From contig ONNS01000007.1 of the NCBI GenBank assembly GCA_900319275.1, positions 24,753 to 88,752 on the forward strand: a DNA stretch of 64,000 nucleotides, read 5' to 3'. Both the position numbers and the translations under genes were made by a program. Of the stretch, positions 16,355 to 54,382 are shown one piece after another (the first letter of the stretch is position 1; every line of letters begins with the position of its first letter). The DNA is from an uncultured Eubacteriales bacterium (GTDB taxonomy: Bacteria > Bacillota > Clostridia > Oscillospirales > Oscillospiraceae). The notes below the pieces were generated by a model. The model was given only the letters and a program-made list of their open reading frames with translations, had not been told where the DNA came from and did not search any database.

Positions 16355-16747
16355 TTAGAATCGTACGGTTTTCGGCGGCTCGGTGAAGGAGCTGAAGGTC
16401 GCCGCGGCATTGCGGAGATACCAGATCTCCATGTTGCCGTCGTCGGGGGAGTAGCTGCTCTTCAACTCGGGATAGGCCTCCAGCATGCTGAGCTTGGCCT
16501 CGCGCCGGTCGTCCACGGCGGCGCTGGCCTCGACGCGCAGCCATACGCCGTCGGAAAAGGCGCACAGCTCAAGCCGCGGATTCGCGTGCAGCTGGCGGGA
16601 GACGGATTTGCTGCGGCCGGTCAGAAAATACAGCTTGCCGTCAAAGAGATGGATGGTACCGAAGGGGCGCACACGGGGCTGCCCGTTATCAACGGTGGCC
16701 AGATAGTAGACGCCGACCTTTTTGAGAAAATCGAGAACTTCCTGCAT
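16355..16747 (-). CDS. Pyridoxamine 5'-phosphate oxidase-fold protein
   Basis: 130-aa protein of the small flavin-binding split-barrel family (PNPOx-like). The pattern YYLATVDNGQPRVRPFGTI, then FDGKLYFLTGRSKSVSRQL, then NPRLELCAFSDG is characteristic of FMN or F420-type split-barrel reductases. It is too short for a true PdxH. The substrate is unknown. It is a single gene with its own terminator; a GGAG-type ribosome site lies before the ATG. Confidence 0.85.
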   Translation of the reverse strand: MQEVLDFLKKVGVYYLATVDNGQPRVRPFGTIHLFDGKLYFLTGRSKSVSRQLHANPRLELCAFSDGVWLRVEASAAVDDRREAKLSMLEAYPELKSSYSPDDGNMEIWYLRNAAATFSSFTEPPKTVRF

Positions 16748-16936
16748 CTGAAAAACTCCTTTCGGGTTAGTTGGATTTGTCCTGTCTATGTTTTTGGTTG
16801 CCGCGCGAGCGGCGAGAAAAACGGCCTAAATGAAATACAATAAGCGCTTCTGCGCTTATTGTACCCTTTTCAGAAGAAAAATACAAGAGCTGCGAGAAAG
16901 AAAGGCTATTTGGCAACAATCCGAAACAAAAAACGT

Positions 16937-38338: not shown

Positions 38339-38438
38339 CACTTATTTTCACATTTTTTTCGTTTCGGACGGATTTCCGAACAGAGAATTGCTGCATAAGC
38401 CCCGCATATAATTATTTTCCGAAAAGCGAGCGCGGGAT

Positions 38439-38467
38439 TTGCTTTTCCGGGCAAACTATGATAAAAT
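38439..38467 (+). promoter_or_regulatory. Possible promoter of the structured region and lysozyme gene
   Basis: TTGCTT, 17-bp spacer, TAAAAT. A start near 38474 would make the hairpin array at 38485-38827 a transcribed leader or an independent RNA. Confidence 0.5.
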
Positions 38468-38484
38468 GCCGCAGGTAGGACTAT

Positions 38485-38827
38485 GTTTAGCCCTTTCCTG
38501 TGAAAGCTGCGCTTCCACAGGTATAACTAAATCCCCGCGCGCATGAAATGCGCGCATGCGAAACGCTGTTTCGCATGAAAAACACAGAATACTCTGTGTT
38601 TTTGGGGATACCGTTGCAACGTCGTCTCCAACTGGCGCACGTTGTGCGTCAGTTGCGGGCTTTCGCCCGCTTACGTCCGCCGCTGGCGGACGTGGAGACA
38701 AAGTTATTATTTGATGCAAACGCGCCATTCTCGCCCCTTGCGGGGCAACCGAATGGCATGCGTAAAAATCCCCATGCGCCAGACGCTTTCGTTTGTTGTG
38801 GTGCAAATGAAATGCGCATGGGAATTT
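38485..38827 (+). ncRNA. Candidate structured RNA with two four-way junctions
   Basis: Non-coding stretch between a promoter and the GH25 gene. Hairpin 1: TTTAG/CTAAA enclosing CCTGTG/CACAGG. Junction A (38531-38609): closing stem ATCCCC/GGGGAT around three hairpins, GCGCGCAT/ATGCGCGC (loop GAA), ATGCGAAAC/GTTTCGCAT (loop GCT) and AAAAACACAGA/TCTGTGTTTTT (loop ATAC). Junction B (38624-38699): GTCTCC/GGAGAC around ACTGGCGCAC/GTGCGTCAGT, GCGGGC/GCCCGC and ACGTCCGCC/GGCGGACGT. Region C: ACGC-GCCATTC/GAATGGC-GCGT, then CCCATGCGC/GCGCATGGG enclosing CAGACG/CGTTTG. Almost every base is paired. No known RNA family is recognised; it may instead be a mobile hairpin element. Confidence 0.55.
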
Positions 38828-38851
38828 ATTATGTATTTACAGGAGAAGCGC

Positions 38852-39715
38852 ATGAAGAGAGCTTCAAAAGCCCGCAATGGTTTTATCCTCGCCGTGATCG
38901 TGGCCTTGCTCGGCGCGATGGTTGTACTCAGCGCCATGGTGCGCCCGCGGCTGACGGATCCGCATGCGGGTCAGGTATATGTATATGACGGCTACGACTG
39001 GGTATGGATGACGCCGATGGAGGGCGTGCCGGTCAATGCCATGGCGGAGGAGGATTTCGACTGGAGCGCGGCGGTGCCCAGTTATCTCCGCGACGGCTAT
39101 GATGTGCTGTGCGGCGTGGACGTTTCCGAGCACCAGGCGGAGATCGACTGGCAGCGCGTGGCCGCCGCAGGCGTCGATTTTGCCTATATCCGCGTCGGCC
39201 GCCGCGGCTACAGCGAGGGCGGCCTGTTTGAGGACGCCTATTTCCGCCGCAATATCGAGGGGGCGAAGGCCGCCGGACTGAAGGTGGGCGTCTATTTCTT
39301 CTCCCAGGCTGTCACAACGGCCGAAGCGATCGAGGAGGCCAATATGGTGCTGCGCCTCGTGCAGCCCTATGCGCAGGACCTGCCGATCATGTTCGACTGG
39401 GAAAAGATCTACAACGACCTGACGGCCCGCACGACCGGACTGGACACCAAGACGCTGTCCGACTGTGCCGTGGCCTTCTGCGAGACCGTGAAGTCCGCCG
39501 GCTACCGCGCCGGGATCTACTTCAACCGCAACACCGGCTATTACGGCTTTGACCTGACGCGCATGGGGGACTATACCTATTGGTTTGCCCTGCCGGAGAG
39601 CAAGTTCCCGAATTTCTATTACCGCGTCGATCTCTGGCAGTACAGCTTCAGCGCGACAGTTCCCGGTATCAATACCCCGACGGATATGAATCTGATGTTT
39701 GTGCCAAAGGCATGA
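38852..39715 (+). CDS. GH25 lysozyme, membrane-anchored
   Basis: 287-aa peptidoglycan hydrolase. N-terminal single transmembrane anchor at about residues 10-31, then a short extracytoplasmic linker and a GH25 muramidase domain: GVDVSEHQAEIDW with the catalytic Asp, FAYIRVGRRGYSEGG, and IMFDWEKIYND with the second acidic pair. LWQYSFSATVPGI is typical of the C-terminal strand. The ATG at 38852 has AGGAG six bases upstream; in-frame starts further up lie inside the structured region. A role in cell-wall remodelling or spore release is plausible. Confidence 0.9.
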   Translation: MKRASKARNGFILAVIVALLGAMVVLSAMVRPRLTDPHAGQVYVYDGYDWVWMTPMEGVPVNAMAEEDFDWSAAVPSYLRDGYDVLCGVDVSEHQAEIDWQRVAAAGVDFAYIRVGRRGYSEGGLFEDAYFRRNIEGAKAAGLKVGVYFFSQAVTTAEAIEEANMVLRLVQPYAQDLPIMFDWEKIYNDLTARTTGLDTKTLSDCAVAFCETVKSAGYRAGIYFNRNTGYYGFDLTRMGDYTYWFALPESKFPNFYYRVDLWQYSFSATVPGINTPTDMNLMFVPKA

Positions 39716-54246: not shown

Positions 54247-54382
54247 CACCTTATCAAGAGCGGTGGAGGGAACGGCCCTGTGAAGCCCGGCAACCTGTGG
54301 GAGACCATAAGGTGCCAAATCCGGCGGGAAACGAAAGATAAGACGAACAAGTCCTTTTAGCGCCTGCCGGTCGGCAGGCGCT
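54247..54382 (+). promoter_or_regulatory. SAM-I (S-box) riboswitch with terminator
   Basis: The aptamer starts CTTATCAAGAGCGGTGGAGG and continues with GGCCCTGTGAAGCCCGGCAACC and closes with GATAAG at 54337-54342, forming P1 with CTTATC. These are the signature segments of the SAM-I family. The expression platform ends with the strong terminator AGCGCCTGCCG/CGGCAGGCGCT plus TTTCTTTT (54359-54392). It should stop metK transcription when SAM is abundant. Confidence 0.95.

Follow-up and report, generated by a model that had tools for sequence, protein, structure and literature searches.

According to the parts of the accounts cited here, small structured mobile repeats are already known as a kind in bacteria (PMC2229807, PMC2267715). 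The bacterial MITE-like mobile sequences include Correia/NEMIS, ERIC, RUP and YPAL; as they are characterised in a portion of the source (PMC2229807), they are non-coding, shorter than 200 bp, dispersed and highly paired, have inverted ends and a target duplication, are usually without a proven transposase, and pair either end to end or in two arms. The stem-loop repeat families compiled in a 2008 survey of 40 genomes are repeated, mostly intergenic, and have a fold in common (PMC2267715, in part). The REP sequences, palindromes of 20-40 bp carrying GTAG or CGTC tags, are short mobile DNAs that can form doublets (REPIN) and are moved by RAYT, in the excerpts describing them (PMC3116915, PMC3733652). 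The insertion sequence IS30, which encodes a transposase, forms circles and dimers in which the ends abut over a 2-bp spacing, and produces 2-bp target duplications (PMC9333248, in the section concerned).

The stretch of DNA analysed here (the window; 64,000 nucleotides) contains, ahead of the gene for a GH25 lysozyme, a dense array of hairpins which probably represents two nested non-autonomous mobile repeats, A and B, in the 5' untranslated region of that gene (Table 1). We infer that A and B are miniature transposable elements, and that it is folded DNA, rather than RNA, which is maintained. Like the MITE-like repeats described above, both are non-coding, shorter than 200 bp, dispersed and highly paired; A differs from their pairing plan in having two three-hairpin junctions in series around a fixed central GC. 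Among the features that typify MITEs, short length, non-coding sequence and dispersed copies were found (A at 28 places, B with 33 matches, and a third element, FE, in 51 of 102 genomes), as were terminal inverted repeats in A and FE and a target duplication for A. The plan of A is reminiscent of IS30 in its 2-bp spacing (the central GC) and its 2-bp duplication (the outer AT); in contrast to IS30, A and the related families FE, DC and G are non-coding and consist of two units of differing sequence. A and B resemble the stem-loop repeat families in being repeated, mostly intergenic sequences with a common fold. Compared with REP sequences, which are likewise short, palindromic and mobile, A and B are larger and have multiple hairpins, and, unlike REP/REPIN, whose partner Y1 transposase gene is flanked by the repeat itself, they are located at some distance from both RAYT-like genes in their own genome. 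These two genes (L187 and L188), recovered in a family search for Y1 transposases, are each near other palindromic repeats, of the GGGACAGGGGACGG and GTAGGGGCG types, and no A or B hairpin was seen at either, for which reason the REP/RAYT system was rejected as the source. Searches of the open-access literature yielded no description of the A, B, FE, DC or G elements.

Table 1. Positions, in the window, of the nested elements and of the gene signals on either side
Feature	Position	Strand	Basis or remark
Promoter-like TTGCTTTTCCGGGCAAACTATGATAAAAT, TTGCTT..TATGATAAAAT, of the GH25 gene	38439..38467	+	Host DNA outside the elements; putative activity
B, left part with hairpin P1 (38497-38521)	38494..38522	+	Contiguous with right part in relatives lacking A; left border approximate
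AT, left copy of the dinucleotide duplicated on insertion of A	38523..38524	+	Window against L282; L048 against L403
Element A, 181 bp, ends AACT..AGTT	38525..38705	+	Matches in own genome, alignment of copies
A, first four-way junction: outer stem ATCCCC/GGGGAT, three hairpins	38531..38609	+	Detector
A, centre CGTT-GC-AACG, units meeting over GC (38616-38617)	38612..38621	+	Exact in 15 of 18 full-length copies
A, second four-way junction: outer stem GTCTCC/GGAGAC, three hairpins	38624..38699	+	Detector
AT, right copy of the duplicated dinucleotide	38706..38707	+	Same comparisons as for the left AT
B, right part: linker, P2 (38720-38763), P3 (38765-38827)	38708..38827	+	Right border approximate
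Ribosome site with ATG	38839-38854		Directly outside the elements
GH25 lysozyme gene, 287 aa	38852..39715	+	Pfam PF01183, E = 4.7e-27; downstream of the elements

Folding of positions 38430-38880 gave a z-score of -9.61, and none of 100 dinucleotide shuffles was as stable. The fold comprises nine hairpins, namely P1, three within each of the two junctions, P2, and P3, in agreement with the earlier note, which had described at least nine hairpins and two compact four-way junctions. A junction detector requiring an outer stem of at least 5 bp around three hairpins, with at least 72% Watson-Crick pairing, returned exactly two junctions in the 64-kb window; these are the two that had been described, and their outer stems lie at the positions previously assigned to them. 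No three-hairpin junction was found by the same detector in 256 kb of first-order Markov sequence, nor in a second Markov control of 400 kb; 400 kb of the own genome together with the window contained eight, all belonging to the families A, FE, DC and G. Hits with only two hairpins were near chance, as judged from 11 in the real DNA versus 7 in the 400-kb control. No Rfam family reached its threshold at the hairpin region, in accordance with the earlier statement that no known RNA family could be recognised. The 421-bp region was without any match in the plasmid and phage collections, and the IMG/VR pattern searches returned a single contig for the B core (L186) and none for A or FE; a phage or plasmid origin was rejected on these grounds.

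The promoter and the ribosome site just beyond the last stem, both reported previously, were located in DNA outside the elements. Because the promoter is upstream of the elements, the GH25 mRNA is likely to include a folded leader about 370 nt long. This position between promoter and ribosome site, together with the great stability of the fold, would suit a cis-regulatory leader dedicated to the GH25 gene; such a role is very improbable, however, since the same sequences occur at unrelated sites and are missing from the corresponding locus of the related genome G035, in which promoter and gene start are kept. This locus is the best match to the GH25 region (82% identity over the gene part) and has the same promoter (with one base different), ribosome site, and start, with neither A nor B; the interval from the -10 region to ACAGGAG measures 43 bases in G035 versus 371 in the window. 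A conserved GH25 leader is thereby refuted. A recent co-option of the region as a GH25 leader in this species may have taken place. The tRNA-GH25 locus itself is widely common to the genus.

In the own genome, the segment 38522-38707 recurs at unrelated places, with 28 matches of at least 83 nt including that of the window, of which the full-length ones are mostly 89-97% identical. The figure of 28 is an upper bound because several matches are halves at contig ends; the 48 A end motifs (against 0 for the reversed pattern) suggest about 24 copies. The terminal inverted repeats of A, AACT/AGTT, are short. Among the distinct full-length copies, AT is present on the left in 18 of 18 and on the right in 16 of 18, and beyond it the bases are variable, leaning to T on the left (12/18) and to A on the right (12/18). 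Other matches in the own genome were confined to the outer two parts of the query, which correspond to B. As these two parts are contiguous in relatives, the window is read as A inserted in B. Nesting was also found elsewhere, with A within a B copy in L038 and FE within a B copy in L032. The earlier note had placed three modules in a row; its two junctions stand, and together make up element A, whereas the notion of a single unit does not, the first hairpin and the third module being the two halves of B.

Evidence for insertion comes from one A copy (L048) that lies in a repeat found free of A in the same genome (L403), the two differing by A plus one AT. This is the one near-exact empty site for A within the same genome, and the duplication there may be read as 2 to 5 bp, since A starts with AAC and the target continues with AAC. 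Comparison of the window with the uninterrupted, more diverged B copy of G035 (L282) fits a duplication of 2 bp. Thus, interpretation of the outer AT pairs as target duplications is supported by an empty site for A, and the same is presumed for FE, DC and G. Recurrence of one sequence at unrelated sites with target duplication, which the earlier note had named as counting against an RNA, is what was found for A. Empty sites of B (L407 for L269, and L272 for L102) are too diverged for an exact duplication to be read, and at the site of L102 another genome carries B in the opposite orientation (L120). At L039 the relative's stretch has 87 other bases in place of A and is not a clean empty site, the flanks of L040 and L047 have only partial matches in G035, and a pattern search for an empty FE site gave none in 102 genomes. 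The host repeat of A at L048, also present at L403, L398 and L408, is itself a hairpin repeat, ACGGCGCAATCGC..GCCGT, beside a GGGGAGGGGC palindrome.

Element B consists of three hairpins, i.e., P1, whose outer stem is variable yet mostly paired, P2, and P3. In P2 there is an internal loop, TC/AACC, which is conserved, as well as a bulged AT. A scan of named genomes for the P2 core gave at least 115 stretches, and among 80 titles of matches listed for the B core most were Oscillospiraceae, Ruminococcaceae, and other gut or rumen Clostridia; the matches listed include Anaerofilum, Pygmaiobacter, Pseudoflavonifractor, and, by title alone, one Domibacillus (L081). A covariance model, a kind of check that the earlier note had proposed for the whole array, was built for B without the window copy and used to search 60 genomes, the own genome included. 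Matches were present in 21 of the 60 with a patchy distribution; the own genome had the most, 33, while G035 had 21 and G022 had 19. In the same 60 genomes, the SAM riboswitch was found in 46 and was single in 43 of these. The window has one such riboswitch at 54248-54344 (RF00162, 74.5 bits), relatives of which served as the control for both wobble and copy number. Copies of B often occur in head-to-tail arrays with a period of about 111 or 143 bp; in the arrays of L257, L253, L115, L111 and L107 adjacent units have an AT-rich edge in common. On the minus strand of the window, at about 16726-16869, there is a further B-like copy with a weaker match (model E = 1.1e-4), whose P1-P2 hairpins lie just 3' of a promoter-like sequence and 5' of a short gene.

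Whether these stems are kept as RNA or as DNA bears directly on the nature of the region. Covariation was assessed in P2 of B, where the core letters are fixed by the search pattern and only positions n4-n7 are free on both sides. At these four positions Watson-Crick pairs occur in 109, 112, 109 and 105 of the 120 distinct copies, against shuffled means of 74, 56, 54 and 45. This covariation and the conserved internal loop, taken alone, would fit RNA. Template switching during replication can make and mend perfect stems, as reported in part of one source (PMC8794818). Covariation of the stems is not decisive for RNA, because it can be produced by this process.

The kind of mismatch was therefore compared with that in a known RNA. 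In RNA helices, one-sided changes lead to G-U far more often than to A-C. The SAM control, 30 riboswitches drawn from those genomes of the genus and order that were searched, had a G·T to A·C ratio of 90:3 (distinct types, 11 to 3), although some of the 90 G·T cells may represent G-U pairs that are themselves conserved. The corresponding ratio for B was 12:13 (22 copies), and P2 of B had 6 vs 11 at n4-n7 and a further 0 vs 9 at n2-n3. In A the counts were 30:16 by cell and 12 to 15 by distinct type. A shows little covariation because its copies are too alike, and only 4 of its 75 pairs occur in more than one Watson-Crick type. FE covaries strongly, both partners having changed in 22 of 79 pairs, and gave a ratio of 50:57 (distinct types, 27 to 33), its reference copy being free of G-U by construction since its structure was derived without G-U. 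In these counts the structures of SAM and B were from RNAalifold, that of A was from one sequence with G-U allowed, and that of FE was from one sequence. The FE alignment started from 64 loci, and removal of incomplete, edge and identical copies left 58 besides the reference. The stems of A, B and FE are kept, but not in the manner of one RNA strand. Moreover, the tested loci with A, B, FE or G gave no Rfam match to these elements at the gathering score, the sole hit among the tested loci being another RNA beside B in L025.

It is against this background that B, either alone or with A, might be viewed as a structured RNA that also spreads, and whose transcript binds a protein or ligand and controls downstream genes. 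RNA control of downstream genes has been proposed for some other bacterial repeats. Such a role would account for the strong covariation and the conserved internal loop of P2, and for the location of the window copy and, by eye, of several others between promoter and ribosome site. We consider it unlikely, as the G·T to A·C ratio of B is far from that of the SAM control, other copies are, by eye, antisense or 3' of genes, the orientation is reversed at one shared site, and B is missing at the GH25 gene of G035 and patchy in the genus. Thus, of the two possibilities raised in the earlier note, an undescribed structured RNA or leader is not upheld in view of the many unrelated sites, the insertion of A in B, the empty G035 locus and the lack of a G-U bias, while a hairpin-dense mobile element is supported by the multiple copies, the nesting, and the AT duplicated for A. 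There is a caution here for those who look for new RNAs, since the region stands up to a test of stability, and B and FE to one of covariation, but not to a G-U wobble test against a riboswitch. A wobble control against a riboswitch of related genomes could be used to screen other "ornate RNA" candidates.

The new point to emerge is that four families without significant overall similarity, A, FE, DC and G, follow one plan. Each has two three-hairpin junctions in series within 180-204 nt, with 76-80% of bases paired (for L046, the second FE copy to be folded, a 230-nt segment was cut arbitrarily), and T-GC-A separates the junctions in each of the four. A, FE and G show the plan AT-[three-hairpin unit]-GC-[three-hairpin unit]-AT, which in DC was pieced together from partial copies. 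The short inverted ends of the units are AACT..CGTT-GC-AACG..AGTT in A, AATGA..TCATT-GC-AATGA..TCATT in FE (terminal inverted repeats AATGA/TCATT), ATTTTC..TACAAT-GC-AATTTATT..AATAAATT in DC, again as assembled, and ACTATTC..GCCGT-GC-AATACC..GGTATT in G. In FE, whose matches were in genomes of the genus (loci including L032, L351, L352 and L046), the centre is exact in 49 of 63 copies and the outer AT is present on each side in 59 of 63. The DC loci are L067/L398 (one locus), L394, L408, L042, L041, L043 and L053, and the right end of the sole full-length copy, L067, is without a clean AT. G is represented by L355 and by a copy in the own genome (L381); these may be one inherited insertion because they have the same right flank. 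The results from blastn between families gave only hits with E values of 0.24 or higher. The best of these (A-DC, 10 nt, E 0.24) includes the outer stem GTCTCC/GGAGAC, and the two families may be distant kin since they have this stem in common, an exception to the general lack of similarity. The detector scan gave 62 three- or four-branch hits, some of them nested duplicates; L114, L135, L177, L301 and L311 are outside all four families.

We tentatively suggest, as one possibility and with less than even confidence, that these elements form a class held together by fold and dinucleotide plan rather than by sequence, and that a putative enzyme recognises the cruciform or single-stranded form and joins the ends with a two-base spacing. 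If the enzyme reads the branched form, individual sequences could be replaced over time and the architecture still be retained in at least four families. In the preferred reading, in which we have greater confidence, each unit has its own short inverted ends, and the two units meet end to end over the fixed GC, which by analogy with IS30-type circles and dimers looks like a fixed end-to-end junction. An enzyme acting in trans would attach the outer ends at an AT target, with the 2-bp duplications as a result. A, FE, DC and G are probably non-autonomous elements moved in trans by an enzyme of the IS30 type or of the serine-recombinase type. A serine recombinase that exchanges strands at a dinucleotide would likewise give identical dinucleotides at the two ends. 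The search for Y1 transposases gave no mobilising enzyme, and in the 161-contig draft of the own genome no two A ends were spaced at the distance of an insertion sequence. The stems may stay perfect through template switching during replication, selection for branched DNA, or both, and GH25 expression would be affected, if at all, only incidentally. Should the common plan be borne out, DNA shape would be what marks these small mobile elements for recognition, and a direct search could be made for an enzyme that reads branched DNA.

Template switching has also to be weighed as the sole origin. In such a scheme, A-type elements would arise and spread by template switching and recombination between hairpins with neither transposase nor recombinase, and the AT would be part of the repeat. 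The overwhelmingly Watson-Crick stems are in keeping with this, as are lone perfect hairpins in L067 and L068, which consist of the right end of A and its inverted copy, as if from fold-back copying. A further hairpin of at least 8 bp lies within 60 bp of A in 10 of 20 copies, or in 11 of 40 flanks versus 31 of 1060 background windows, a comparison in which the flanks are mostly intergenic and the background mostly coding DNA. The clean full-length insertion of L048 relative to L403, with only an extra AT, speaks against this origin, as do the ends, which are constant in 18 copies of A and 63 of FE although the flanking bases differ from copy to copy, tending to T on the left and to A on the right. 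We regard this origin as improbable. Insertion of A as a non-autonomous mobile repeat is the preferred reading. Two A copies adjoin coding sequence: at L039 (1001-1183) and L055 (1010-1171) an open reading frame reaches or enters A and terminates there.
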